The notes under the pieces were generated by a model that was not told the origin of the DNA, did not search any database, and saw only the letters and a program-made list of their open reading frames with translations. A stretch of 64,000 bases of DNA from Desulfobacteraceae bacterium. GTDB lineage: Bacteria; Desulfobacterota; Desulfobacteria; Desulfobacterales; Desulfosalsimonadaceae. The stretch is from positions 62,001 to 126,000 of the forward strand of contig QZKW01000088.1 in assembly GCA_003599885.1 (NCBI GenBank), read 5' to 3'. Positions 6,213 through 46,024 of this stretch are shown in pieces (positions within the stretch are counted from its first letter, which is position 1; each line of letters starts with the position of its first letter). Position numbers and translations under genes: made by a program.

Positions 6213-7304
6213 TTATCTCAGTTTTAAAGTGCTGATGGCAAACAGCGCCAGAATAATCGCGATGATCCAGAACCTTACAATCACTTTGGATTCCGGCCAT
6301 CCCTTTAATTCAAAATGATGATGCAGCGGCGCCATGCGAAAAATCCGGCGGCCTTTTGTCAGTTTAAAATATCCGACCTGAAGAATGACGGACATGGCCT
6401 CCATCACAAAAATACCGCCCACCAGAACCAGCAGGATTTCCTGTTTGGTGATCACCGCAATGATTCCGAGCAGCGCGCCCAGGGGCAATGACCCCACATC
6501 CCCCATAAAAATCTGCGCCGGATAGCTGTTAAACCATAAAAACCCCAGCCCGGCTCCGGCGATGGCCCCGCAGATGATGGTTGCTTCGCCGCATCCGGCC
6601 ACGTAACTGAGCTGGAGATATTCGGCAATTTTCAGATGGCCCGTGACATAGGCAAACAGCATGTAGGTCGCGGCGGCGATGGTCACGGGCCCGATGGCCA
6701 GACCATCCAGTCCGTCAGTGAGGTTCACCGCATTGGATGCGCCTACGATCACCAGAATGGCAAAAAGGATATACCAGGGCCCCAGATCCGGGGTTACGGT
6801 TTTAAAAAAAGGAATCGTGACCTGGGTATGAAATCCCGGATACATATAAATGATGAATCCGGCGATTCCGGCGATCACCACCTGAAGAATCAGTTTTCCC
6901 CTTGCGGTTAATCCGGTGTTGCGTTTTTTGATCTGTTTTAAATAGTCATCGGTAAAACCGATGCCGAAATATCCGGCAGCCACAAACAGGATAATCCATA
7001 TATAGAGATTGGATAAATCCACCCACAGCAGCGTTGACACCAGAATGGACAGAAGAATCAACACACCGCCCATGGTGGGTGTTCCGGCCTTGCCCTGATG
7101 GCTCTCGGGTCCGAGTTTCCGGATATACTGGCCGATCTGTTTTTCCCTGAGCAGGCGGATCATATAAGGCCCCAGAACAAAACAAATCAGCAGAGCGGTC
7201 AAACTGGCGCAGATGGTGCGAAACGTGATGTACCGGAACACGTTGAGCACCGAAAAATCCGCCTGAAATCTATTAAACAAGTGATACAGCATAAAAATAT
7301 CCAA
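6213..7304 (-). CDS. mraY: Phospho-MurNAc-pentapeptide transferase MraY
   Basis: Transfers phospho-MurNAc-pentapeptide to undecaprenyl phosphate, giving lipid I. The 363-residue polytopic protein has the catalytic aspartates in FTDDYLK, then [12 protein letters not shown] and [12 protein letters not shown], and the MraY-specific triple-His [12 protein letters not shown] near the C terminus. Start at 7304 gives [10 protein letters not shown]; the ATG four codons in is also possible. It lies 15 nt after murF. Confidence 0.97.
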
Positions 7305-7319
7305 AAAAAATAATAGGGC

Positions 7320-8747
7320 TTATGTGCTTTTATCCGCTTCTTCCAGCAGGTGAACGATTGTTTCCATCCCGACACTTCGGGAACCTTTGACCAGCACCCA
7401 GTCTTCAGGCCCCAGAACGTCCGCCAGCCGCTCGGCCAGATCCGCTTTTTCCCCGATAACGATACAATCGTCCGTCATGCCCTGTTTGCTTGCCCCTTTT
7501 TTCACGGCAGCCGCATACTCCCCGGTCAAAAAAAGCATGTTGATTCCCGATTGCGCAGCGATTCTGCCGATGTCCTCATGCAGACGTTCCGAATCCGCGC
7601 CCAGTTCAAGCATATCCCCTGCCGCGAGCACACCTTTTTGAGTGCCTTTTAACGTGACCAAAGTCTTAATGGCCGCTTCCATGGAACCCGGGTTGGCGTT
7701 ATACGAATCATCAATAATAAAAAAACCCTGCCGGGATTTCCGGATATTCATGCGACCATGCACCGGCGCAAATGCGGCGATGCCGGCGTGAATATCTTCG
7801 GCTGAAACACCGGTCAAATAACCGATGGTCGCCGCCGCCAAAGCGTTCGACACCATAAACCGGCCCGGAGCTGGGATATCGATCTGAATCTTGGCCGGAA
7901 TGGTCTGATCGGGCAGCACAAGGGTAAATTGCGTGCCGAACGCTTTGTTTTGGATGTCCAGGCCCCGCACATCGGCGCCCGCTGACTGACCGAAATACAC
8001 CACCCGGCAGCGCGCCGACGCCCCCAATTTTAATCCGCAGGGATCATCCCCGTTTAAAACAATGGCGCCGGATTCTTTTATGTTCTCCATCAATTCGCCC
8101 TTGGCCGCCATCACCTCTTCCAGGGAGCCCAGACCTTCCAGATGGGCCGGGGCGACATTGGTGATAATGCCGTAATCCGGCTGACAAATTTCCGAGAGCC
8201 TTCGGATTTCGCCGGAATGGTTCATGCCCATTTCCACCACCGCCGCCTGATGGGAGGCATTCAGTCGCAGGAGGGTCAACGGAACGCCGAATTCATTATT
8301 GAGATTCCCGATGGTCTTTAAGGTATGATACTTGCGGCCCAGTACCGAGGCGCTCAGTTCTTTGGTGCTTGTCTTTCCATTGGACCCGGTAACCGCCACC
8401 ACAGGGATGTGAAAGCGGCGGCGATGAAATGCGGCCAGATCGCCCAGAGCCCTTACCGTGTCAGCTACTGCAACGCAGCAGATATTTGCTTGTGTCCAGG
8501 ATGCGATTTCCTCATCCCCCACCTTCCGGCGGTCCACCACAAGCCCTTTAACACCGGAAGCAATCACCCCTGGAATAAAGGCATGCCCGTCATGGTTCGC
8601 GCCTTTAACCGCCACAAACAGATCCTGTTTGGCAATATTCCGGGAATCAATGGATATCCCCTCAAACGAGACGGATGCGCCGCCGGATACCTGTTCACCA
8701 CCGGTTGCAGACACAATTTGATCGATTGTCCATGGAACCGGAGCCAT
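7320..8747 (-). CDS. murF: UDP-MurNAc-tripeptide--D-Ala-D-Ala ligase MurF
   Basis: Adds D-Ala-D-Ala to the UDP-MurNAc tripeptide. The 475-residue protein has the P-loop VAVTGSNGKTSTKEL, the NNEFGVPLTLL motif and the IDDSYNANPGSMEAA block characteristic of MurF. Its ATG shares one base with the TAA stop of murE (TAATG), so the two are probably translationally coupled. Confidence 0.97.
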   Translation of the reverse strand: MAPVPWTIDQIVSATGGEQVSGGASVSFEGISIDSRNIAKQDLFVAVKGANHDGHAFIPGVIASGVKGLVVDRRKVGDEEIASWTQANICCVAVADTVRALGDLAAFHRRRFHIPVVAVTGSNGKTSTKELSASVLGRKYHTLKTIGNLNNEFGVPLTLLRLNASHQAAVVEMGMNHSGEIRRLSEICQPDYGIITNVAPAHLEGLGSLEEVMAAKGELMENIKESGAIVLNGDDPCGLKLGASARCRVVYFGQSAGADVRGLDIQNKAFGTQFTLVLPDQTIPAKIQIDIPAPGRFMVSNALAAATIGYLTGVSAEDIHAGIAAFAPVHGRMNIRKSRQGFFIIDDSYNANPGSMEAAIKTLVTLKGTQKGVLAAGDMLELGADSERLHEDIGRIAAQSGINMLFLTGEYAAAVKKGASKQGMTDDCIVIGEKADLAERLADVLGPEDWVLVKGSRSVGMETIVHLLEEADKST

Positions 8748-30182: not shown

Positions 30183-30920
30183 ATGGAAAGTCCCAATGAC
30201 CGGGAATTGGAAGGATTGAAAGACTGGACCCCGGTGGAAAAAACCATTTTTTCCCGGCGCAGCACCCGGGCATTCAAAAAAAAGCCCCTGCCCGACTTTA
30301 TGCTCCGCCGGATTCTCGAGGCCGGGCGGTTTGCCCCGTCTGCCGGGAACTCGCAGCCCTGGCGATTTGCAGTGGTCAAAAGTCCTGAAATTCTGGCTGA
30401 GATGGAAAAAGACGCCATCAAAATGACGAAGATCATGATGTTTTTCTTAGATTACACCCGCAGCCGGTTCCGCAATATATTTCTGAAACCTTTGATTAAA
30501 TTAATTATCCGGCTTATGCACAACGAACTGCATCCCGTGCCCTATGGCCTGATGAACGCCATTGCCGAAGGCCGGGCGCCGGTATTCCATGACGCGCCCG
30601 CCCTGATCCTGTTGTTTGAAGACTGCCGGGGCGTGTCCTCCCCGCCCATGGATACCGGCATCTGCGGCCAGAACATGGTGCTCGCCGCCCACAGCATGGG
30701 AGCCGCCACCTGCTGGATCGGACTCATCAAACTCCTGATGTTTGATCCCAAATGGAAAAAATTTTTCAAGGTAAAATATCCTTACCGCCTGAACGTCTGC
30801 ATTGCCGTCGGCTGGCCCAAAGTCGATTCCGACGGTCCGGTGGAGAGGGAGGTCCAGCTCGTGGAATGGTATGACGGGGGCATGGCGGATGGCCCCCGGA
30901 TTGAAAGGCAGGGTGAATAA
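30183..30920 (+). CDS. Nitroreductase family protein
   Basis: A 245-residue FMN-binding nitroreductase-fold protein. It has the SRRSTRAFKKKPLP phosphate-binding start, APSAGNSQPWRF, and the late MDTGICGQNMVLAAHSMGAATCWIG block. A CAGGAGACT ribosome site precedes the ATG. Members reduce nitro groups, quinones or enones with NAD(P)H; here the acyl-CoA operon suggests a role on an unsaturated or electron-transfer substrate. It ends two bases before the next ATG. Confidence 0.9.
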   Translation: MESPNDRELEGLKDWTPVEKTIFSRRSTRAFKKKPLPDFMLRRILEAGRFAPSAGNSQPWRFAVVKSPEILAEMEKDAIKMTKIMMFFLDYTRSRFRNIFLKPLIKLIIRLMHNELHPVPYGLMNAIAEGRAPVFHDAPALILLFEDCRGVSSPPMDTGICGQNMVLAAHSMGAATCWIGLIKLLMFDPKWKKFFKVKYPYRLNVCIAVGWPKVDSDGPVEREVQLVEWYDGGMADGPRIERQGE

Positions 30921-30921
30921 T

Positions 30922-33099
30922 ATGAAATATGAAAATTTTAAATTTTGGACGCGAATTCCTGATTACAATGACGCAAACGACATGACCACAGGCCTTCTGG
31001 ATTTTGATGACCGGAAATGCCAGCGGTGCGGCATCTGCGAATTCATCTGTCCGGGCCGATCGATCCAGCGGGATTCGAGTCTGTCGGGGTGGCGTAACGG
31101 GCTCCCGAGGCTTGCGCCCACGGCAAAAGGGATTACGGAATGCATCGCCTGCGGGTGCTGCGTGGTGGCCTGCCCTGAACAAGCCATCCGGATTCAAAGA
31201 CAATTCAATCCCGGTTATTTTTTTCACCGCCTCACCCAGACCGGCCACATGACCCTGCCAAAATTATACCGCAAAGACAATCCGCCCCCGGCTGAAACCG
31301 GGGAGGCTTCCGGGACAGCCCTGCCGGCGGGACAACAACCGGCCCGGAAAATCAACTGGGCCTATAAACTTCGGCAAATGGCGCTGCTCAAGGCGGCCGT
31401 ATCCGGATTTACCCGGATGATCACCGAAGAAATCCGTGAAGGCAGGATCATTGACGATGTCCGGGCCAGACGCCGGGGAGAACCCAATGACATTTCCTGG
31501 GCCCGGCTCCTGGAAACCCGGGCCCGGCAAAAACCGGACAAGATTTTTCTCACCTATAAAGATGGGCATGAAAATGGATGCGCGAGCGAAGCCTTCACCT
31601 TCCGCCAGATGGATGACAACGCCAACCGCATGGGAAATTTCCTCCTTCAGCACGGCGGGGGCCGGGGAAAAGGGCTCGGCATCTTCATGCGCAATTCCCC
31701 CCGGTTTCTGGATGTTTTTTTCGGGGCGCAGAAAATCGGCATGTATCTGGTTCCCATCAATCCGGAACTTAAAGGTGAAGGCTTAAACTACATCATCAAC
31801 CATTCGGATATCGAAAGCCTGGTGCTGGATGCTGAGCTCATTCCTTCCTTTCAGACAATGACGGGGGAAACGAAAAACCTCCAACGGATTTTTGTGGATG
31901 ATATGGAAAAGGACGCCCGGGACATGCCGCTGCCTGGGGAAATGATTCCTTTAAGCCGGGCTTACGGCATGATGGCCGAGAATCCAGGCATCGCGAGCAA
32001 TCCGGAAGACATGTGTCTCATCATTTATACATCCGGCACCACGGGCCGTCCCAAGGGCGTTGTGTACCGGTACAAAAAATCATCGGTCAAACTGCTGACG
32101 TTTTTCTCCCATATCCTGCTCCGGGAAGACGACGTTTATTACACCTGCCTGCCATTGTGTCATGGCAACGCCCTGTTTATCACCACCACCATGTCTCTGG
32201 CGCGCGGCGCGAGCATGGCGCTGTCCCGGAAATTTTCCGCCAGCGGGTTTATTGACACGGTGCGCGGGTTCAATGCAACGGTATTCAACACCATCGGCTC
32301 GATTATTCCCATTCTCATGAAGCAGCCGGAAAAAGCAACGGACCGGCAGCATAACGTCCGGGTGGTTTTTTCCGCCGCCTGTCCGGCGGACATGTGGCGG
32401 CCTTTTGAAGAACGCTTCGGGGTGACATTATACGAAGGCTACGGGGCCGTGGACGGGGGCGGAAAAGGCATCATGAATCTCGGCACCGCGCCCGTGGGTT
32501 CCCTTGGCAAACCCGCCGATCCCAGGGAAATAAAGATAGTCGATCCGGCGGGGAATCCGGTACCGGCAGGCGTTCCCGGCGAACTCCTGTTTCAAGTCAA
32601 AAAAGGCGCCAGCGCAGTGGAATATTATAAAAATGAGGAAGCCAGCCGCCGGAAATCATCGGACGGCTGGCTTCATACCGGGGACCTGGTGCGGCAGGAT
32701 GCAGACGGATTCATCTATTTTGTGGGCCGCAACACCGAATCCATGCGTAAAGGCGGGGAAAACGTGTCGGCCTATGAGGTGGAGCATATCATCATGGAGC
32801 ATCCGTCGGTGGAGGAGGCAGCGGTATATGCCGTACCTTCGGACATGAACGAGGATGAAATCATGGCCGCCGTCAAACGGGTGGACGGGCGCAGTCTCAC
32901 GGCCACTGAACTCCGGGGGTTTCTGACGGACAAACTCGCCCGGTATGCAGTGCCGCGTTATATCCGGTTTGTGGATGACTTTCCCAAAACCACCTCCCAC
33001 CGGATCATTAAAAAGCCTTTGGAAGACGAAGGGGTGACACCGGACACGGATGACGGGTTATTTGTGAATTCAGCAGCCAGAAGACAGAATTCAGAATAG
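30922..33099 (+). CDS. Ferredoxin-acyl-CoA ligase fusion protein
   Basis: A 725-residue fusion. The N terminus has two [4Fe-4S] motifs, Cys33/36/39/43 (CQRCGICEFICP) and Cys74/77/80/84 (CIACGCCVVACP). After a linker (about 90-190) comes an AMP-forming acyl-CoA ligase of the FATP/very-long-chain type: FTFRQMDDNANRMGNFL, the ATP loop IIYTSGTTGRPKG near 370, YEGYGAVDGGG and WLHTGDLVRQDADGF. The start at 30922 is chosen because AGGG precedes it and it leaves only a 1-base gap after the nitroreductase. The last residues and the TAG are supplied by a 7-bp repeat element. Confidence 0.9.
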   Translation: MKYENFKFWTRIPDYNDANDMTTGLLDFDDRKCQRCGICEFICPGRSIQRDSSLSGWRNGLPRLAPTAKGITECIACGCCVVACPEQAIRIQRQFNPGYFFHRLTQTGHMTLPKLYRKDNPPPAETGEASGTALPAGQQPARKINWAYKLRQMALLKAAVSGFTRMITEEIREGRIIDDVRARRRGEPNDISWARLLETRARQKPDKIFLTYKDGHENGCASEAFTFRQMDDNANRMGNFLLQHGGGRGKGLGIFMRNSPRFLDVFFGAQKIGMYLVPINPELKGEGLNYIINHSDIESLVLDAELIPSFQTMTGETKNLQRIFVDDMEKDARDMPLPGEMIPLSRAYGMMAENPGIASNPEDMCLIIYTSGTTGRPKGVVYRYKKSSVKLLTFFSHILLREDDVYYTCLPLCHGNALFITTTMSLARGASMALSRKFSASGFIDTVRGFNATVFNTIGSIIPILMKQPEKATDRQHNVRVVFSAACPADMWRPFEERFGVTLYEGYGAVDGGGKGIMNLGTAPVGSLGKPADPREIKIVDPAGNPVPAGVPGELLFQVKKGASAVEYYKNEEASRRKSSDGWLHTGDLVRQDADGFIYFVGRNTESMRKGGENVSAYEVEHIIMEHPSVEEAAVYAVPSDMNEDEIMAAVKRVDGRSLTATELRGFLTDKLARYAVPRYIRFVDDFPKTTSHRIIKKPLEDEGVTPDTDDGLFVNSAARRQNSE

Positions 33100-33157
33100 A
33101 AATGATTCAATCCTTTTTCAATTCTGGATTCCGACTCCTCTATTCCGGATTCCGGAC
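33066..33157. repeat. Heptamer-type repeat overlapping the end of the fusion gene
   Basis: From about 33069 the sequence follows a 7-base step (AGCAGCC, AGAAGAC, AGAATTC, AGAATAG) and later shows the inverse type (ATTCTGG, ATTCCGA). It is one member of the family seen at 40068, 42219, 44159 and 45920, and it runs through the stop codon of the upstream gene. Confidence 0.5.
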
Positions 33158-33190
33158 GATGACCTGTTTATCTATCATAAGGAGAACAAC

Positions 33191-34693
33191 ATGATTTCAC
33201 GAAAAGAAACCAAGGCTTATGCGAACCAGCCGCCAAGGTTCGATGACATGATATGCAGCCTTCCGGCCGCGCCGAAAATACCCAAGGCAATGGTGAAGGA
33301 AACCCGCAAGGTAGTGGCCCTTGCCCGGAAATTCAATCAAGAGGTTGTCCGGCCCCGCGCCCTGGAACTGGACCGCAGGATGCATGAAGATCCGGACTAT
33401 CTCCCCTGGGACATGGTTGAAACCATCAATGACTGGGGGCTTTACACTTTGTGGATTCCCAAAGTTTTCGGGGGCAAAGGCTATAACATGCCGTCCATGT
33501 GCTATTTTATCGAAGAAATCGCATCCGCCTGCCTTTCCATCGCCAATCTGATCGGCGTGCATTACCTGGGCGTCTGCACCCTCACGTCCACCTGGAACAT
33601 GCGGCTCATCAACCACATCTGCCGGGAAGTAACGCTCGGCGAAAAGAATCACACCCCCTGCCTGATCACCCTTGCCATCACCGAACCGGGGGCAGGCACG
33701 GATGTGGAGGAAACCGATTTGATCGGCAAGGGCAACATCACCTGCCATGCCGAAAAAGTCGCGGGGGGATACCGGCTCAACGGAAGCAAGATCTTTATTT
33801 CCAACGGCCACGTCTCCACCTGGCACATGGTCGTGGCCTATTCTGACCTGAAAAAACCCGCTGACACCACGGTGGTTCTGGCCGTCAAAAACGGGACCCC
33901 CGGTTTTTCTTTCGGCCGGAAGGAGCACAAACTGGGCCAGAAAGCCTGTCCGGCCAGTGAACTGATCTTCAGGGACTGCTTTGTGCCGGATGAATTCGTA
34001 TGCCTGGACCCTTCGCAAGTGACCGCCAGCCAACGGCCTCCACGGGAAATCGCCATGCAGATGATCGATTATGTGGTATCCGCCACCCGGGCCGGGGTCG
34101 GCGCATTCGCCACCGGGGCGGCCCGAGGGGCGTTTGAAGCAGCCCTGAATTTTGCGTCCACAACCGTTGTGGCCGGAAAACCCCTGATCAATCATGAGTG
34201 GGCGCAATGCCGGCTTGCCGAAATGTATAAAAACGTAACCCTGTCACGGCTCACCTATGTGGAAACCAATTACGCCAACGGCTTGCATGGCGCTTTCCGG
34301 GAACTTCAGAAAAAACCCATGTATTATTATTACAAATTCATGCCTGCCAAATTTTTCGATAAAATCATGCCCCCGCTCATGAATAAACCGTTCATGACCC
34401 GGCTGTCCCGCAAAGTGCAGATGGACGGGCAGACGGATGATGAAATGCACCGGACCTCCGGGTGGGCGTCGCTGTCCAAATTCGGAGCAACGGACCTGGG
34501 CGTCAAAAACTGTCAGATGGCCCTGGAGATGATGGGGCAGAATGGCCTGCGCCATGACCGGGGAGCGGAAAAAATCCTGCGCGACGCCAAGCTGCTTCAG
34601 ATTTATGAGGGCACCAACCAGCTCAACCGCCTGAACCTGTTTAAGTGCCTGATTGCCGTCGACTGTCCGCAGGCCACTGTTTTTGACGAATAA
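33191..34693 (+). CDS. Acyl-CoA dehydrogenase
   Basis: A 500-residue FAD acyl-CoA dehydrogenase. Blocks include LITLAITEPGAGTDVEE, GSKIFISNGHVSTWHMVVAYS, the long C-terminal helical domain with EKILRDAKLLQIYEGTNQLNRLNLF, in which the usual catalytic-region YEGT motif is present. AAGGAGAACAAC precedes the ATG. Length exceeds the common 380-residue form by an internal insert (about 370-410). It introduces the 2,3 double bond of an acyl-CoA, passing electrons to ETF. Confidence 0.93.
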   Translation: MISRKETKAYANQPPRFDDMICSLPAAPKIPKAMVKETRKVVALARKFNQEVVRPRALELDRRMHEDPDYLPWDMVETINDWGLYTLWIPKVFGGKGYNMPSMCYFIEEIASACLSIANLIGVHYLGVCTLTSTWNMRLINHICREVTLGEKNHTPCLITLAITEPGAGTDVEETDLIGKGNITCHAEKVAGGYRLNGSKIFISNGHVSTWHMVVAYSDLKKPADTTVVLAVKNGTPGFSFGRKEHKLGQKACPASELIFRDCFVPDEFVCLDPSQVTASQRPPREIAMQMIDYVVSATRAGVGAFATGAARGAFEAALNFASTTVVAGKPLINHEWAQCRLAEMYKNVTLSRLTYVETNYANGLHGAFRELQKKPMYYYYKFMPAKFFDKIMPPLMNKPFMTRLSRKVQMDGQTDDEMHRTSGWASLSKFGATDLGVKNCQMALEMMGQNGLRHDRGAEKILRDAKLLQIYEGTNQLNRLNLFKCLIAVDCPQATVFDE

Positions 34694-34712
34694 CCCCTGG
34701 AGGGACCATTTG

Positions 34713-35834
34713 ATGATCACACCCACCGATAAAGAATTAAAACTGATTGACAAGGCATCGGCGGAATTTGCCAAAAAGGAGCTGGCGCCGAAACGCGCGG
34801 AAAACGATCAGTTCCCGTTCGGGCCTTTTTTTGAACCGGTGCTGGGCAAAGCCTTTGCTCTGGACTTTTTTCACACGGTGCTGCCCGAATCCATTGGGGG
34901 AATGGGCCAGGGCATCTGTGCGCTGTCGGTCATCCTGCGCAATCTCTGCCGGGAAGACAGCAGCCTGGGCGGCATTGTCTTCACCAACGCAGCGGCACAG
35001 ATTCTCATGCTGGCGGCGGAGGCAGGGGACACGCTTTCCGAAATCACGGGAAAAGCCGGATCTGTCCGGGACTTTCTGATCGCCTTTCCCGTATTCAACA
35101 ACCCATCGGAAATCGCGCCTGCGGCTGTGGCGAAAAAACGAAGCGACGGTTATAAAATAGACGGCCGCGTTGATTACGTCGTTCTCGGCGGCCTTGCGGC
35201 ACACGCCCTGATCCCGGCCCGCATTGAGGGCGTGGACGGATTTTCCTTTTTCCTGATTGATCCGGCAGACAGCGGCGCATCCGTCAGCCCCCCGATCCAC
35301 AGCCTGGGCCTTAACGCCTGCCCGGCGGTTGATCTTGCTCTTTCAGCGGTCAGGGGAACGCTGGTGGGCGCACCCGGCCAGGGGGCGGCGATTTTTGACA
35401 CAATGACAGACCGGCTGTCCGTGGCGGAAGCGGCCATGTCCGCCGGTGTCATGAAGGGATCGTTTCAGGAGGCGCTTGAATATGCAAAGGCCCGTCAGCA
35501 GGGCGGCCGGGAGATCATCGGCTGGTCCGGCCTGCGGATGATACTGGCGAATATGGCGGTTCACCTTAAAAACGCCGAAATGATCATCACACGCGCAGGA
35601 CAGGCGGTGGACGCGGAAGAATCCGGCTGGCAGGCCTGTTCCAGGGCTGCGGCCATCCATGTGCAGGCAGTCGCCTGTGATGTCACCACCGACGGGATTC
35701 AGGTTCTGGGCGGCGTGGGATATATGAAAGATTTCGGACAGGAAAAGCGGTACCGGGACGCCAAACATCTTCAGGCATTGCTGGGCATGGCGCCCATGAA
35801 GAAGCTGCGGTTTATCGAAAAAATAACGACTTAA
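34713..35834 (+). CDS. Second acyl-CoA dehydrogenase-like protein
   Basis: A 373-residue member of the same superfamily, more diverged than its neighbour. It has LPESIGGMGQGICALSVILRN, TDRLSVAEAAMSAGVMKGSFQEALEYAKARQQGGREI and VTTDGIQVLGGVGYMKDFGQEKRYRDAKHLQALLG. The usual catalytic Glu position could not be placed with certainty. The start at 34713 (MITPTDKEL) follows GGAGGGACC; a longer frame overlaps the preceding gene. It may form a heteromeric dehydrogenase with the preceding protein. Confidence 0.88.
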   Translation: MITPTDKELKLIDKASAEFAKKELAPKRAENDQFPFGPFFEPVLGKAFALDFFHTVLPESIGGMGQGICALSVILRNLCREDSSLGGIVFTNAAAQILMLAAEAGDTLSEITGKAGSVRDFLIAFPVFNNPSEIAPAAVAKKRSDGYKIDGRVDYVVLGGLAAHALIPARIEGVDGFSFFLIDPADSGASVSPPIHSLGLNACPAVDLALSAVRGTLVGAPGQGAAIFDTMTDRLSVAEAAMSAGVMKGSFQEALEYAKARQQGGREIIGWSGLRMILANMAVHLKNAEMIITRAGQAVDAEESGWQACSRAAAIHVQAVACDVTTDGIQVLGGVGYMKDFGQEKRYRDAKHLQALLGMAPMKKLRFIEKITT

Positions 35835-35844
35835 AGGAGGAAAG

Positions 35845-36681
35845 ATGAGCATTTTCAGGGACAGGGTCGCCATCGTTACGGGCGCGGGATCGGGTATCGG
35901 CAAAGCAGTGGCGGAGGCGCTCTGCCAAAAAGGGGCAAAGGTTGTTCTGGCGGATTATAAGGAAGAAACAGTCAAAGCCGTAGCCGCAGCAATCAATATG
36001 AAAACTGGGGGCAAAACCGGTAGCGCCCAGGCCGTTCGCCTGGATGTCACGGATTATGATGCGGTCAAAAAAACAGTGGACGACACGGTTAACACCCTCG
36101 GCCGCCTGGATTATATGTTTAACAACGCGGGCATTGCCGTGGGCGGGGAAGTCCGGGATACGAACATCGATGACTGGCGGGCGGTGCTGAATGTGAATCT
36201 CTTCGGCGTTATTCACGGGGTGGACGCGGCCTATCCGGTCATGGTCCGGCAGGGTTTCGGCCATATTGTGAACACCGCATCCATTGAAGGGCTGGTGGCG
36301 TTTCCCGGAACCGCCGCCTATGTGGCCAGCAAGCACGCAGTGGTGGGGCTTTCCAACACGCTGCGGATCGAAGGCAGGGAACTGGGCGTCAAAGTCAGCG
36401 CGGTCTGTCCCGGTCATATCAAAACCGCCATTTTCAATGACTCGAAAATGGTCAATATCGACCGGAAAAAAGTCCTTGAAATGGTGGCCAAAATCCCCGG
36501 CATCACGCCGGAGGAATGCGCCCGGGAAATCCTGAAAGGGGTTGAAAAAAATACCGGCGTGATTGTCATCACCGCGTTGGCGAAAATCCTCTACATGCTT
36601 CAGCGCCTGAGCCCGGATCTGGCCATGAAGCTCATGTCCCTTGACATGAAACGCATGCGGAACGCCCGGATTAAAAAATAA
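35845..36681 (+). CDS. Short-chain dehydrogenase/reductase
   Basis: A 278-residue classical SDR. The NAD(P) motif VTGAGSGIGKAVAEAL, NNAG and the catalytic Ser/Tyr/Lys region (NTASIEG, AAYVASKHAVVG) are clear. AAAGGAGGAAAG lies just before the ATG. In this operon it is a candidate 3-hydroxyacyl-CoA dehydrogenase. The operon has no recognisable enoyl-CoA hydratase, so that step must be encoded elsewhere or bypassed. Confidence 0.92.
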   Translation: MSIFRDRVAIVTGAGSGIGKAVAEALCQKGAKVVLADYKEETVKAVAAAINMKTGGKTGSAQAVRLDVTDYDAVKKTVDDTVNTLGRLDYMFNNAGIAVGGEVRDTNIDDWRAVLNVNLFGVIHGVDAAYPVMVRQGFGHIVNTASIEGLVAFPGTAAYVASKHAVVGLSNTLRIEGRELGVKVSAVCPGHIKTAIFNDSKMVNIDRKKVLEMVAKIPGITPEECAREILKGVEKNTGVIVITALAKILYMLQRLSPDLAMKLMSLDMKRMRNARIKK

Positions 36682-36735
36682 AGGGCGGGGACGTCCGGCG
36701 CAGCCAACGAAGATACGCTTGAATGCGCATCGGAA

Positions 36736-37275
36736 CTACCAGATCCTGAAGCGCCCGGTATCCAGATGGACAAAATCGGATTTGGCATAGTACCCCACAC
36801 CACCGGCGCGCAAGTCGGCAGCCGTGTTGCGGAGTTTCCAGGTGGGCAGATCAGTGATCCGTATGTCAACGGCCTGGCCTTTCATATGCAGGCTTTTCGA
36901 GGCGACACCGCTGGAATTATGACGCAGGCGGTTGTTGGTTTGCGGGGACCGGTATCCGGAAATGATCTCGATGGTGCCGCGGCTCCCGGTGACCGATTGA
37001 ATTTTGCAGAGCAGGTCGAGAAGTTTCGGGTCAATGGGATGTACGTCGCCGGTGCGGAAATCCCGGAGAAACGTTTTAATTTTTTTCTGTATCGAGTTCG
37101 AGCAGCGGCCCGGGGTGTGCAGAATCCTTAAACATTCTTCGGTATGGGTGTGAAAAAAGGTAAGCGGAACTTTGCCGGGTTCCCTTGCCCAGCCGGTCAG
37201 GGGCGGACACACGAGCAATCCGGCTGCGGCTTGTGCGGCGGTGATCAGAAACCGCCGTCGGCTGATGTTCGGCAT
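36736..37275 (-). CDS. mepK: Murein endopeptidase MepK (YcbK/DUF882 family)
   Basis: A 179-residue exported M15-type peptidase. A Tat-type signal (SRRRFLITAAQAAAGLLV) precedes a domain with FFHTHTEE, ISGYRSPQTNNRLR, SLHMKGQAVDIRI and DFVHLDTGRFRIW, containing the His-Asp-His zinc ligands of MepK. E. coli MepK cleaves 3-3 crosslinks made by L,D-transpeptidases. It lies 23 nt after an L,D-transpeptidase gene, the same pairing as E. coli ycbB-ycbK. AAAGGCGA precedes the ATG. Confidence 0.92.
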   Translation of the reverse strand: MPNISRRRFLITAAQAAAGLLVCPPLTGWAREPGKVPLTFFHTHTEECLRILHTPGRCSNSIQKKIKTFLRDFRTGDVHPIDPKLLDLLCKIQSVTGSRGTIEIISGYRSPQTNNRLRHNSSGVASKSLHMKGQAVDIRITDLPTWKLRNTAADLRAGGVGYYAKSDFVHLDTGRFRIW

Positions 37276-37298
37276 AAGAAATCGCCTTTTATTCGTTT

Positions 37299-39980
37299 TT
37301 AGTGGTTGTACAACGCCCTGATCAGTTTTTGATCCCGGCCGTAAATGTCGCCATTAAAACAGATCCGCCCGTTTTTGTCAACCCATGAGGTTTGATAGGT
37401 AAGATGCACCGGCAGCGGTTCGGGAAGCGTGATAACGACGCGCTTGTTTTCACTGATGCGGGCGCTGATTTTTTCCGGCGTCCAGCCGCCCGTATGGCGG
37501 GACAGCACAAAGGCGGCCAGTTTTACGGGGTCGCTCACCCGGATACACCCGTGGCTGAAATCCCGCTGGTTCCGTGAAAAAAGATTCTGCGCGGGCGTGT
37601 CGTGAAGATACACATCGTATTTATTGGGGAAAACAAATTTTATCCGCCCCAGCGCATTCCAAGGGCCGGGGTCCTGGCGAAGGCTGTACTGTCCCATCCT
37701 GGCCGGACTCACATGCCTCCAGTCGATGCTCCTGGAGTCGAGCTCCCTGGCGTCTGCGTTCCACCCGGAAAAAAGCCGGACATGGCGATTCACCAGATAA
37801 TCTGGGTCTTTTCTGAGTTTTGGAAGCTCTTCATTCCGGGCGATGGTGGGCGGGATGTTCCAGTAGGGGTTTATATCGACATAGGCGATGCGGTCGCTGA
37901 AAATCGGGGTCTGCTGCTGAAATTTCCCCACGATCACGGGGATGCGAAAGGCCTCCTGTCCGCCCTCAAATGCGGTGAGATCAAAATTGGCAATGTTGAC
38001 GAGAACATATGTCTCCCCAAGATCGTGCTCCTGCCAGCGCCATCGTGTCATGTTGATGATGATCTGTTTAATTCTGTCCGCCACGGTTGCGTTCAGGGCG
38101 GCGAAGGTCTTCGGGCCGATGACGCCGTCGGGAAAAAGGCCGTGCCTCCCCTGGATTCTCATGACCGATTGTTTCAATAAAAGACTGTAATGCCCTGTCT
38201 GCGCCACCACCGGGTCCAGGTCCCCGGTCACGGACAGATGATGGATGACGGCGGGGAGGCGTTCATCATGGTCCCCCGGCCGGATGGTCTTCCCGGCGGG
38301 AATGGACGACCAGCCGCCGTTTTTTTCAATCTCCCGGTACGTCTTGAGCGCTTTTTTTAAACCCATGTAGTGCGAATGTGCGGGGGGAAGGCCCTCCAGA
38401 TAAACAGCAAGGTCCGGCGCCCCGAGCGCCTTTTCCAGGGTCGTCTGAGGTTCAAAATTGACATCCCCCGCCTCCGGGAACAAGGCCGGATCCGCAAAAC
38501 GCGGCTTGATCTGGCCCCGGCTGACATCATGGATGTATTTAATCAGGTTAAAGGTCAGCAGGGTATCCAGCTCGGCAAGATCGCGGGGCTGACGCGCCGA
38601 AAAGAGCGCGGAAAAGAGCGCGGAAATCTTATCAACTTCGTAATTCCGGGGATCAAGCCCCTCGGTTTCAGCTTTGGCCAGAAAATCCAGGACAATGGAA
38701 GCCTTCGGCCCCGGACCGTCAGGGGTGACCCAGTATGGGCGAAGGTCTTCCGGATGGTAGACCGCCGCCAGGCAAAAACTTTTGGAGGTCACCGCCAGTT
38801 CCTGTTTTTCCATGCCCATCAATTCGAGGGGGAAACACACCAGATACTCCGACATGGCCGCTGTCAGCGCATCCATCTGCTCCTGTGCATGACAGGGCTT
38901 CAGAAAAAGAATACCCAGGATGACCAGAATGCATAAAACTGCGGACAGCATCCGTTTCCCCAGCTCAGCCCCAAGCTGCCCGCAGGCGGCCATCACATTC
39001 CGGCCCCTGGACTGGCGGATGCGGACAAAAATGTTCCGCTCCACCAGCCGGTCGCGGAATGCTGTCATCTCGGCATCGTCCGGCGTGGTAAACGGCGATC
39101 CATCCACCCCGTTATAGCCGATCAGGTTGACCCTGACCGGAAGCCCTTCAACAAAACCGGCCAGCCGGTCCGCATCCTCAGCCGAATCGTTGACGCCGGG
39201 CAGCAGCACATACCCGATGAGGATAAAATCCCTTTTGCTTGCGGGAAAATCCATGAGGGCGGATTTTAATTGGGCCAGGGGATATCTGCGGTTGATGGGC
39301 ATGAGCCGGTCGCGCAGATCATCCGTCACCGCGTTCAGTGAGACGGCCAGCCGGAGCTTGGCGGGCCTTATTCCAGCCAGCCGCTGAAGGCCGTCCACAT
39401 GCCCGGCGGTGGAGATGGAAACATGGCTGGGCGGGATGGAAAACCCCCGCTGGTCAATGATCACCCGCACCGCCTGAATCACATTGTCCAGATTGTCCAG
39501 CGGCTCGCCCATTCCCATAAAGACAATATTATCAACTGGATAATGAAGCAGAAACCGGGCCGCCCATACCTGCCACACAATTTCCGAAACCGTCAGATTG
39601 CGGACAAATCCCATGTCGCCGGTCACACAGAATTTGCATCCCATCCGGCACCCCACCTGGGACGACACGCACAGGGTGGTGCGGCCGGATGCGGGGATAA
39701 TCACGGACTCCACCAGGCAGTCATCGGAAAGCGCGGTGGCGAATTTCACCACTTCCCCGTCATCAATGCGGGAATGGATGCGGCAGGATGGCAGTTCCAT
39801 GTCCGCCGCAATTTTTCCGGCAAGCGCAATGGACGCCGCAAACTCCGGGGCATGGGCGAAGGTTTCACTGCCGTTTTTAAAAATCTCCCGAAAAAGGGCG
39901 GCAGCATGAAACAGGCCTTTGCCGTACCGGCGGCCAAATTCTTCGGCAAGCTCCGCGCAGGTTAATGAGAATACATCCAC
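37299..39980 (-). CDS. RlmN-type radical SAM methyltransferase fused to a YcbB-type L,D-transpeptidase
   Basis: An uninterrupted 893-codon frame with two unrelated halves. Residues 1-342 are RlmN-like (23S rRNA/tRNA C2-adenine methylation): Cys104 (TLCVSSQVGC), the radical SAM Cys111/115/118 (CRMGCKFC) and Cys333 (AACGQLG). Residues 344-893 are an exported L,D-transpeptidase: a membrane/signal segment (MLSAVLCILVILGILFL), a peptidoglycan-binding block (GLFPDGVIGPKTFAALN) and the YkuD motif with catalytic Cys (FSHGCIRVSDP). An internal ATG at 38951 preceded by GGGGA could also start the second half separately, so either a true membrane-spanning fusion or two read-through genes is possible. Confidence 0.88.
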   Translation of the reverse strand: MDVFSLTCAELAEEFGRRYGKGLFHAAALFREIFKNGSETFAHAPEFAASIALAGKIAADMELPSCRIHSRIDDGEVVKFATALSDDCLVESVIIPASGRTTLCVSSQVGCRMGCKFCVTGDMGFVRNLTVSEIVWQVWAARFLLHYPVDNIVFMGMGEPLDNLDNVIQAVRVIIDQRGFSIPPSHVSISTAGHVDGLQRLAGIRPAKLRLAVSLNAVTDDLRDRLMPINRRYPLAQLKSALMDFPASKRDFILIGYVLLPGVNDSAEDADRLAGFVEGLPVRVNLIGYNGVDGSPFTTPDDAEMTAFRDRLVERNIFVRIRQSRGRNVMAACGQLGAELGKRMLSAVLCILVILGILFLKPCHAQEQMDALTAAMSEYLVCFPLELMGMEKQELAVTSKSFCLAAVYHPEDLRPYWVTPDGPGPKASIVLDFLAKAETEGLDPRNYEVDKISALFSALFSARQPRDLAELDTLLTFNLIKYIHDVSRGQIKPRFADPALFPEAGDVNFEPQTTLEKALGAPDLAVYLEGLPPAHSHYMGLKKALKTYREIEKNGGWSSIPAGKTIRPGDHDERLPAVIHHLSVTGDLDPVVAQTGHYSLLLKQSVMRIQGRHGLFPDGVIGPKTFAALNATVADRIKQIIINMTRWRWQEHDLGETYVLVNIANFDLTAFEGGQEAFRIPVIVGKFQQQTPIFSDRIAYVDINPYWNIPPTIARNEELPKLRKDPDYLVNRHVRLFSGWNADARELDSRSIDWRHVSPARMGQYSLRQDPGPWNALGRIKFVFPNKYDVYLHDTPAQNLFSRNQRDFSHGCIRVSDPVKLAAFVLSRHTGGWTPEKISARISENKRVVITLPEPLPVHLTYQTSWVDKNGRICFNGDIYGRDQKLIRALYNH

Positions 39981-40067
39981 AGGCCACTTCCTTTTTTAAA
40001 GTCCGGGTTTTAGATCCGGGATCATGAATCTATCCTCATTTGCGTCCGGATGTCAACCACGGCCAGA

Positions 40068-40176
40068 GCTACTCGGTATTCAGAATTCAGGAGTCAGGAG
40101 TCAGGAGCCAGAATAAAAATGATTCCTTCCTTTATTCTGACTTCTGAATTCTGGTTCCTGAATACCTGAGTAGTTA
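40068..40176. repeat. Heptamer-type inverted repeat element
   Basis: Left arm ACTC-GGTATTCAG with AGGAGTC-type units, an inner AATGATTCCTTCC core, then ATTCTGA-type units and the right arm CTGAATACCTGAGT. The outer arms are near-perfect inverse copies. It is a member of the same family as the elements at 42219, 44159 and 45920. Confidence 0.6.
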
Positions 40177-40199
40177 CCGATCCATGATGTTCGGGCCAA

Positions 40200-40243
40200 A
40201 TTACCGGCTTTTCTTTACCCCTGAAATGAGCCGGTAATTTTTT
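40200..40243 (+). terminator. Rho-independent terminator-like hairpin in the TonB receptor leader
   Basis: ATTACCGGCT (40200-40209) and AGCCGGTAAT (40229-40238) pair exactly around a 19-nt loop and are followed by five T. No plus-strand gene ends upstream, so it may end a leader transcript of the receptor gene or stop readthrough. Confidence 0.6.
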
Positions 40244-40357
40244 AAAAATGCTGCTTTACATGAACGAAATTTTCTTCCATAACAGATGCTAACCTTTTTT
40301 TTATCCCGGAAAGACACCCAGCAACCGACACTCAACCTAACGACCAGGGAGCCTCTA

Positions 40358-42202
40358 ATGAATCAGATAAAATTCAAGTGGATATGGATCATCTCCATGC
40401 TGACTATAGCGCTGTCTCCCTCTTCCGGTTGGGCAGAGGAAAACGCCTCCGAAAACACAGAAAGTTATCAACTCCAGGAAATCGTGGTCACCGCCACCCG
40501 TGAGGAAACCCTAAAGCAGGATGTGGCGGCCAATATCACGGTGGTCGACCGGGAGGCCATTGAGCGCATGCCGGCCGCCACCGCCGGGGAAGTGCTCCAG
40601 TATATTCCCGGCGTGTCCATTGAATCCAACGGCGGCCCGGGGGCCATGACCACGGCCCGGATCCAGGGCTCGGAAACCCGGCATGTGGCGGTGTATGTGG
40701 ACGGCGTGCCCCTTAACCTGCTGGCCAACCCGCTCACGGACCTCACCTACCTGCCGGTGGATACCATTGAGCGCATCGAGGTCTACAAAGGCGCGGCCTC
40801 TTCGGCCTGGGGCTCCGCCCTGGGCGGGGTCATCAACATCATCACCCGGGAACCGGACCCGGACAAACCCGTTGGGGCATTTGTCCGCTCCTCCTTTGGG
40901 AAGGCAAACACCTCCAAAAACCGGGGCCATGTCAGCGGGACCAAAGACCGGTTCGGGTATTTTCTGTCCGTGACCCATGACCAGAGCGACGGGTTTGTGG
41001 ACAACGCTTCCTATGACCAGACCGCCCTTTACGGCAAGCTCAATTATAAAATCGGAGACGCCAGCCGGATCAATTTCGTGGCCAGCGATGATGACGGCCA
41101 CAATGAAGACCCGCTCATCAATTACCCGGATTTCTGGGACGACATCCACCAGGACCGCTCCTACCAGCGCCTGCTGTTTGAAACCGCTTTGTCTAAAAAA
41201 CTCAAATTTTCCGTGGAAGGACGCCATCATTATTATGACGTAAAGGTTGAAGATGTCTACACGGACAGGCGGGAAATTTATAACGATTATGACGAAACCA
41301 ACTGGGGCGGAAGCGCGAAAGTCAATTTTGAACCGAACGCGGCCCACGCCTTGAATCTCGGGCTCGACAGCGACCGGGGCCGGTTCGACTGGATTAACTA
41401 CACCCGGAAATATGACACCCAGAACTGGGCCGCCTATGCCAATGATACCTTTACCCATGACCAGCTTTCCCTCAATGGCGGTCTCCGTTACGACGACAAC
41501 AAGGATTTCGGGTCTGCCGTGAGTCCGTCCGCCGGCGCGGTGTACCGGATATGTGACGACCGGGCCCTGGTCCGCGCACAGGTGGCCAAGGGATTTTCCG
41601 CGCCGCCCGGAGCCTGGGTCAAGGACCCTGTTTACGGCACCGAAGACCTGGACCCGGAAACCGCGGTGAATTACCAGTTGGGATCGGAAATCCGGTTCCT
41701 GAAATTTTTCAAGTTTGAAACCAATCTGTTTTACGCGGATGTGAAAGACCTGATCCGCTATGATCCGGACACCCGCAAATTTGAAAATATTGATGAGGTC
41801 ACCCGTCAGGGCGTGGAAGGCATTTTGTCCGCAGGCTTTGATTTTGGCCTGGACCTGTCTGTTTCCGGCACATTTACGGATGTGGAGGATGACACCACCC
41901 ACCAGGAGGTCAAGGACATTCCCAAGGAACAGTATCAGGCATCCGCAGCTTATACTTGGCAATGGATGACCCATTCCATCTTAGGGAAATACACGGATTA
42001 CAATTCCACGTACCCGGAAACCAGGGACAAGAAATTCGTGTTTGACTATCTGTTCAAGGCAAAACTTCCGGAAATCCGCTACCTGAACCAGGTTGAAGTG
42101 TTCTGCGCCGTCTATAACCTGTTCAACTCCAACACCGTCTACCGGAGCGACTGGCCCCAGCCGGACCAATGGGCGGAGGCGGGGATTCAGTTCTCTCTTT
42201 AA
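40358..42202 (+). CDS. TonB-dependent outer-membrane receptor
   Basis: A 614-residue receptor. A signal peptide (ending SSGWA) is followed by a TonB box-like segment (QLQEIVVTATREE), the plug domain (AGEVLQYIPGVSIE, VYVDGVPLNL, RIEVYKGAASSAWGSALGGVINIITRE) and a beta-barrel ending in an aromatic-rich strand (AEAGIQFSL). Size and plug resemble BtuB/FepA-like receptors; ligand unknown. The start at 40358 has AGGGAG seven bases upstream; a frame starting at 40286 would add an atypical N terminus. Confidence 0.93.
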   Translation: MNQIKFKWIWIISMLTIALSPSSGWAEENASENTESYQLQEIVVTATREETLKQDVAANITVVDREAIERMPAATAGEVLQYIPGVSIESNGGPGAMTTARIQGSETRHVAVYVDGVPLNLLANPLTDLTYLPVDTIERIEVYKGAASSAWGSALGGVINIITREPDPDKPVGAFVRSSFGKANTSKNRGHVSGTKDRFGYFLSVTHDQSDGFVDNASYDQTALYGKLNYKIGDASRINFVASDDDGHNEDPLINYPDFWDDIHQDRSYQRLLFETALSKKLKFSVEGRHHYYDVKVEDVYTDRREIYNDYDETNWGGSAKVNFEPNAAHALNLGLDSDRGRFDWINYTRKYDTQNWAAYANDTFTHDQLSLNGGLRYDDNKDFGSAVSPSAGAVYRICDDRALVRAQVAKGFSAPPGAWVKDPVYGTEDLDPETAVNYQLGSEIRFLKFFKFETNLFYADVKDLIRYDPDTRKFENIDEVTRQGVEGILSAGFDFGLDLSVSGTFTDVEDDTTHQEVKDIPKEQYQASAAYTWQWMTHSILGKYTDYNSTYPETRDKKFVFDYLFKAKLPEIRYLNQVEVFCAVYNLFNSNTVYRSDWPQPDQWAEAGIQFSL

Positions 42203-42218
42203 TTTGAACGGAATGGCA

Positions 42219-42350
42219 ATAACGCCGGTATTCAGGAGTCAGAATTCAGGAGTCAGAATGGAACGCATCTAAGCTTTCAATAATTTGCCGGTTTTTAATC
42301 AACCGAATTCCGGCTCCTGGATGCTGACTTCTGGATACCAGCGTAGTTAC
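42219..42350. repeat. Heptamer-type inverted repeat element
   Basis: Starts with ACGCCGGTATTCAGGAGTC and ends with CTGGATACCAGCGTAG, inverse copies with a few mismatches. Arms hold AGGAGTC/AGAATTC units on one side and GACTTCT/GGCTCCT on the other. It fills most of the space between the receptor and kinase genes. Confidence 0.5.
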
Positions 42351-44158: not shown

Positions 44159-44291
44159 GGCAGGAGACAGGAGACAGAAGACAGGAGTCAGAAGTCAGAA
44201 TAAAAATGATTCCTTCCTTCCTTCCTTCCTTCCTTCCTTCCTTCCTTCCTTCATTCTGAATTCTGTCTCCTGAATTCTGAATACTCTATTA
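44159..44291. repeat. Heptamer-type repeat element with a TTCC microsatellite
   Basis: AGGAGAC, AGGAGAC, AGAAGAC, AGGAGTC, AGAAGTC heptamers lead into about ten TTCC units (44210-44252), then ATTCTGA/ATTCTGT heptamers in inverse orientation. It fills the gap between the ends of the convergent kinase and lipoprotein genes. Confidence 0.7.
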
Positions 44292-45919: not shown

Positions 45920-46024
45920 CTGACTCCTGACTCCTGTCTCCTGACTTCTGAATTCTGACTCCTGTCTCCTGAATTCTGAATTCTGACTCCTGTCTCCTGA
46001 ATTCTGTCTTCTGTCTTCTATCTT
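45920..46024. repeat. Fifteen-unit 7-bp tandem array
   Basis: From 45920 the sequence is an unbroken chain of 7-base units of the form CTGNNTY: CTGACTC, CTGACTC, CTGTCTC, CTGACTT, CTGAATT and so on for 15 units, the last being CTATCTT. It stops at the TGA of the upstream lipoprotein gene. It is the most regular member of the repeat family in this window. Confidence 0.85.

Follow-up and report, generated by a model that had tools for sequence, protein, structure and literature searches.

Fusion of an rlmN paralog to an LdtD-type transpeptidase gene in one Desulfobacteraceae genome, probably by insertion of a transferred cassette

RlmN methylates A2503 of 23S rRNA and A37 of tRNA. Why should such an enzyme share a reading frame with a peptidoglycan L,D-transpeptidase? 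This question is raised by one open frame in the window, by which we mean the whole stretch of 64,000 nucleotides that was analysed. An earlier note on this DNA had described a single frame joining both enzymes, with a membrane segment at the join and an alternative in-frame start at 38951, and had raised the idea of a link between ribosome modification and the cell wall.

The frame and its two halves

The frame runs from 39980 to 37299 on the minus strand, from a GTG start to a TAA stop, over 893 codons. A stop codon or frameshift at the join, which the earlier note had named beforehand as evidence that would overturn the fusion, was sought in the given sequence and none was found. The fusion is therefore real in this one assembly. 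Its parts are as follows.

38952–39980, minus strand: rlmN2 half, residues 1–343, with a GTG start
37299–38951, minus strand: LdtD/YcbB-type L,D-transpeptidase half, residues 344–893 and the TAA stop
38946–38967, minus strand: join region; the DNA is like the rlmN of genome G007 from 38968, and like the ldt of genome G750 up to 38945
38886–38951, minus strand: internal signal sequence, residues 344–365, with a hydrophobic core preceded by Lys-Arg and a possible signal peptidase I site, CHA↓QE, judged by eye
38949–38951, minus strand: in-frame ATG (Met344), candidate internal start, with GGGG upstream at 38958–38961

Pfam searches of the 893-residue protein give Radical_SAM at residues 106–270, Scaffold at 404–545, PG_binding_1 at 593–629 and YkuD at 657–827, all above the curated cut-offs, which agrees with the two families proposed earlier (radical SAM of RlmN type and YcbB-type transpeptidase). 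In a 19-residue Kyte-Doolittle scan, windows above 1.6 start only at residues 336–348, the best being 345–363, so that the predicted membrane segment does lie at the join. It is directly preceded by Lys342-Arg343. By alignment, the join coincides with the natural end of RlmN2-type proteins: the position of Arg343 is the exact C-terminus of 2 of 11 RlmN2-type homologs (ending GASLTTR and GASLAAR), a third is of the same length, and the others in this set end anywhere from 2 residues before to about 16 after it.

In the RlmN half, the radical SAM CX3CX2C motif is CRMGCKFC, residues 111–118 (39627–39650). Two further cysteines, Cys104 (TLCVSSQ) and Cys333 (ACGQL), align with Cys in 3rf9, while the 4pl1 chain has Ala at the position aligned with Cys104; we take the two further cysteines of RlmN to be 118 and 355 in E. 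coli numbering. The nearest solved RlmN structures by sequence are 6fz6 (E 3.4e-58) and 3rf9 (E 3.8e-58), and in alignments with solved RlmN chains the half is covered from residue 3 or 13 as far as residue 339, just beyond ACGQL. It thus resembles 3rf9 and 6fz6 in the motif, both further cysteines and the core as far as ACGQL, but differs from them in being a divergent second paralog at the family cut-off, and in that its frame runs on into a transpeptidase. Against TIGR00048, which has an equivalog cut-off of 290 bits, the fusion scores 286.5 and the RlmN half alone 290.0, compared with 292.0 for the rlmN2 counterpart in G007 and 409.9 for the RlmN encoded on contig C22 of the same genome. 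Given the difference between 409.9 and 290.0, the fused half is judged by score to be a second, divergent and spare paralog, the canonical-scoring RlmN being the one on C22. The earlier label of RlmN needs this qualification. At least two separate RlmN matches above 180 bits are present in 13 of 60 genomes, this one included, by a hand count of the table. No paper on rlmN paralogs in desulfo- bacteria was found in the literature searched, nor any on a gene fusion of rlmN with a transpeptidase.

The transpeptidase half has a YkuD domain of 96.2 bits (cut-off 23.4) with the catalytic motif SHGCIR, in which the cysteine is Cys812 (codon 37545–37547). The Scaffold domain (PF20142, 95.5 bits, cut-off 24.6) and PG_binding_1 (PF01471, 25.1 bits, cut-off 23) are both N-terminal to it. 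The nearest solved transpeptidase structures by sequence are YcbB 7aj9 (E 5.8e-62) and 6ntw, which have the same order of Scaffold, PG-binding and YkuD and with which the GCIR cysteine aligns. Unlike these, it stands in frame behind an RNA methyltransferase, and at 265.4 bits it misses the NCBIfam equivalog cut-off of 425 bits (PRK10594). On its domains it is classed as a complete transpeptidase of LdtD/YcbB type, below the LdtD equivalog level.

Directly behind the fusion lies a further cell-wall gene:

36736–37275, minus strand: second cassette gene, of mepK type, for a peptidoglycan endopeptidase (Peptidase_M15_2); separated from the fusion by 23 bp

It scores 158.4 bits with Pfam Peptidase_M15_2 (cut-off 27) and 173.2 bits with the MepK equivalog NF053624, below the cut-off of 185. 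With this gene behind the fusion, the unit is recognized by sequence as an ldtD-mepK cassette, as in E. coli K-12 (b0925-b0926), where the two families, their order and their direction are the same; the gap, however, is 23 bp here and 180 bp in E. coli, and here the cassette follows rlmN2. A review (PMC12729407) describes MepK as the LD-specific endopeptidase able to supply the activity needed once L,D-crosslinking takes over. We surveyed the 35 distinct genomes or records with a transpeptidase match of at least 150 residues, several of which offer a flank of only about 1.5 kb. A co-directional mepK match starts at most 255 bp behind ldt in 17 of the 35; it is nearby but in the opposite direction in 5, and there is none in the flank examined in 13. 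In one of these 13, G009, an M15-like open frame lies downstream but was left unscored by the search. An rlmN match beside ldt occurs in 1 of the 35, namely this genome.

The genome as a whole gives one YkuD and one Peptidase_M15_2 match (E ≤ 0.001), and the YkuD match is the fusion itself. No other YkuD gene was found, so that the fusion has no obvious YkuD-type backup. Contig C65 (6196–6486, minus strand) carries about 51 residues from the end of an LdtD-type transpeptidase, an orphan piece in a frame that overlaps the end of what is presumably an MlaA/VacJ-like gene. It is possibly what is left of an older transpeptidase; a comparison of its neighbours with the collected loci of relatives gave no match.

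Relatives and the origin of the cassette

If the fusion were old, relatives should share it. The earlier note had suggested looking for it there, and it was not found: in relatives the genes are apart. When the full protein was used as query, only this genome gave one match over both halves, both among 60 relatives (itself included) and among 11 genomes of the genus. Wider searches gave matches in 71 of 389 genomes of the order (E ≤ 1e-105), 17 of 389 of the class (E ≤ 1e-130) and 9 of 395 of the phylum (E ≤ 1e-130), and again both halves were spanned in this genome only; the three samples overlap, many of their genomes are fragmented drafts, scoring was confined to the top candidates, and limits as strict as these would miss strongly divergent fusions. 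Among named genomes, none of the best 80 of 587 confirmed loci covers both halves. A few transpeptidase matches start up to 21 residues before the join (G309 from 323, with internal stops; G103 from 328; G214 from 334), and a few RlmN matches extend beyond their own stop. An old fusion common to relatives was rejected, given that no other genome has a spanning match from genus to phylum. As far as the searches reach, this is a single-genome fusion, built of known parts.

The same-genus genome G007 (with a contig of Desulfobacteraceae bacterium isolate clean1013) carries the genes separately, which is one of the two things that the earlier note had said would together speak against the fusion. 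Its rlmN2 stands alone, with its own TGA stop and 84% amino acid identity, 50 bp from a convergent SDR gene. Its ldt and mepK are split over two other contigs, with ldt divergent from an adjoining PAS histidine kinase. In the window, the SDR gene lies on the far side of the cassette:

35845–36681, plus strand: SDR-family gene; the 3' end of its G007 counterpart is the direct convergent neighbour of rlmN2

Because that 3' end directly adjoins rlmN2 in G007, the SDR gene is taken to mark the other border of the insertion. At the DNA level, the window is 85% identical to G007 on the rlmN2 side (38968–39995) and 84.5% on the SDR side (36273–36686), while the cassette between them is only 71–74% identical to G007's own ldt and mepK. 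The cassette is closer to G750, with 79.5% identity to its ldt (37315–38945) and 82% to its mepK (36736–37272). The border between G750-like ldt and G007-like rlmN2 thus falls between 38945 and 38968. G007 is an imperfect picture of the ancestral order, because its contig lacks the window stretches 30394–33322 and 34453–36272, a sign that this region has undergone other changes as well. At about 6279–6300 of its contig C470 an acyl-CoA dehydrogenase-like gene runs directly into the middle of the SDR gene, whereas the window contains an additional 1.8 kb there, between 34452 and 36273; this may be a deletion or an assembly join in G007.

G750, G525 and G497 belong to the same phylum but to another class. 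In a tree of 25 transpeptidases, the copy described here groups with these three (support 92/92, short of what the tree tool marks as strong), and G007 groups with G015 (98/93, marked strong), so that the ldt part does not fit its genome phylogenetically. The same forks are left unsettled in the mepK tree (21 rows). The contig of G750 begins just before ldt, the frame of which is closed upstream with no RlmN sequence, and its ldt-mepK gap of about 320 bp is longer than here. We also considered whether a cassette of the G007 type had moved within the genome, and rejected this, since the tree separates the two ldt copies. This genome's counterpart of the G007 PAS kinase (90%, contig C18) has no ldt or mepK match within the 18 kb around it. 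A search for border repeats in 36600–40300 gave only imperfect matches (61–94% alike), none resembling a target duplication.

The nearest match of the cassette is in G750, a genome of another class, and for this reason the cassette was probably acquired by transfer from another Desulfobacterota lineage, at the end of rlmN. We propose that an ldtD-mepK cassette was inserted between the SDR gene and a spare rlmN paralog, and that the insertion would have replaced the rlmN stop codon together with the transpeptidase's own start and N-terminal region, the frame staying open. Transfer in which a short stretch at the end of rlmN2 was replaced is the best account of the mosaic, the route being our reading of the borders. 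The fusion has the look of a gene-transfer accident rather than of a new connection between ribosome and cell wall, because relatives keep the rlmN and transpeptidase genes apart.

Starts, export and separate products

A candidate promoter is located upstream of rlmN2:

40027–40056, minus strand: promoter-like site, 10 of 12 consensus positions; consensus match only

No other promoter-like site lies on the minus strand within 36600–40400, although the 2 sites found compare with 2.4 expected in shuffles. A weak terminator-like stem of 5 pairs is present at the join (38954–38942, minus strand), in a region with 7 such sites against 4.7 expected (sd 2.3). The unit would probably be transcribed from the rlmN2 promoter.

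In close relatives the frame of ldt begins upstream of the join. In G007, G750 and G015 it extends upstream of the Met344 position, and the usual start codons are at least 22 codons further up. We therefore think it probable that the transpeptidase here has lost its original start and N-terminal region, and that its translation begins either at the start of rlmN2, by read-through, or at the ATG at 38951. An ATG occupies the Met344 position in G525, while in G750 and G015 ATGs lie within the signal sequence, a few codons in, and for that reason an old ldt start at or after the join is also conceivable. Two transpeptidase orthologs, L170 (position 95–235) and L161 (about 8034–8118), have no ATG or GTG before the signal sequence; their sole usual upstream start is a TTG 28–36 codons before it, and L170 has an ATG 8 codons in.

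Ribosomes that start at the GTG would read on into the transpeptidase, making the signal sequence internal and leaving the methyltransferase in the cytosol. Signal peptidase I would most likely then cut at CHA↓QE, freeing the transpeptidase into the periplasm, while RlmN2 would keep a hydrophobic tail. The signal sequence ends in CHA here and in G750, and in CLA (G007), CYA (G015), GFA (G045) and GNA (G044) elsewhere. A small-X-Ala end suits signal peptidase I, and by analogy with known Sec signals cleavage is most likely, although the site is not uniform, G525 having DRA. Some transpeptidase may also start at the ATG at 38951, and the two enzymes would then act separately. Taken as a whole, we consider it probable that this is a single-genome fusion formed by cassette insertion, expressed from the rlmN2 promoter and yielding separately acting enzymes. 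It would be a clean case of a probably transferred cassette that loses its own start and persists by using the frame of a resident gene. Given that the join falls on a signal sequence, export could undo the fusion.

A second reading is that two products are made throughout, with ldt translated mostly or only from the ATG at 38951, either with little read-through or with a stop present in most cells but lost from the consensus. The ATG is present, as the earlier note stated, and is preceded at a suitable spacing by GGGG. In G007 and G750, two close relatives, the residue aligned with Met344 is Ile (ATT), as if a start had been gained, and the ATG of G525 at this place points the same way. The pairing resembling a Shine-Dalgarno interaction has an energy of −5.5 kcal/mol, which makes initiation possible; the value is not telling, as 53 of the 358 internal ATGs reach it, and so do 27 of 40 ORF starts (open frames of at least 250 residues, taking the best start within the first 40 codons of each). 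However, no stop halts translation arriving from rlmN2, and a product starting at Met344 has no positive side chain before its hydrophobic core, where the fused form has Lys-Arg. We regard this reading as possible but doubtful.

A stable bifunctional protein is improbable. This would be a single-pass membrane protein with RlmN2 inside, the transpeptidase outside and their activities coupled, and in its favour are the continuous frame with both catalytic sets, the Lys-Arg and strong hydrophobic stretch that make such a topology feasible, and the presence in it of the sole YkuD domain found in the genome. Yet none of the other genomes searched has the fusion, RlmN2 is a spare paralog, and the signal sequence at the join ends in small-X-Ala like that of the free transpeptidase of several relatives, so that cleavage is likely. 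Purifying selection has acted on both halves, dN/dS being 0.21 when rlmN2 is compared with G007 and 0.27 when ldt is compared with G750, values that mostly cover the time before the fusion and say little on the time since. Relative-rate counts show no excess on this genome's side (13 versus 16, 10 versus 14; 33 versus 45, 24 versus 49). These results argue against long decay. Nothing supports a functional coupling of the two halves, and the link between ribosome modification and cell wall suggested earlier is not upheld: relatives have the genes apart, the fusion is in one genome, and the transpeptidase part looks horizontally acquired. In the strongest form of this reading, the cell's only YkuD transpeptidase would be made solely as a stable membrane protein fused behind an RNA methyltransferase, with the methyltransferase working at the membrane and the level or state of an RNA-modifying enzyme setting 3-3 crosslinking capacity, which we consider very unlikely. 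A fusion of cytosolic and periplasmic domains in a database need not be a working bifunctional enzyme.

The idea of a chimeric contig, suggested by a draft assembly of 90 contigs with a contamination estimate of 2.4%, was rejected as a leading explanation and is highly improbable, given that it needs two false joins some 2.2 kb from each other, of which one would have to fall in frame just where rlmN2 naturally ends, that both flanks match the same-genus genome G007, and that the GC3 of ldt (0.675) and mepK (0.672) equals that of the SDR gene (0.677).

A short repeat, TTCAGGAGTCAGGAG, occurs in the window in clusters at 40079–40107, 42231–42259, 44267–44281 and 45924–46001, with 12 matches when as many as 2 mismatches are allowed, where 0.09 would be expected. 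An imperfect inverted repeat includes the cluster that lies upstream of rlmN2.
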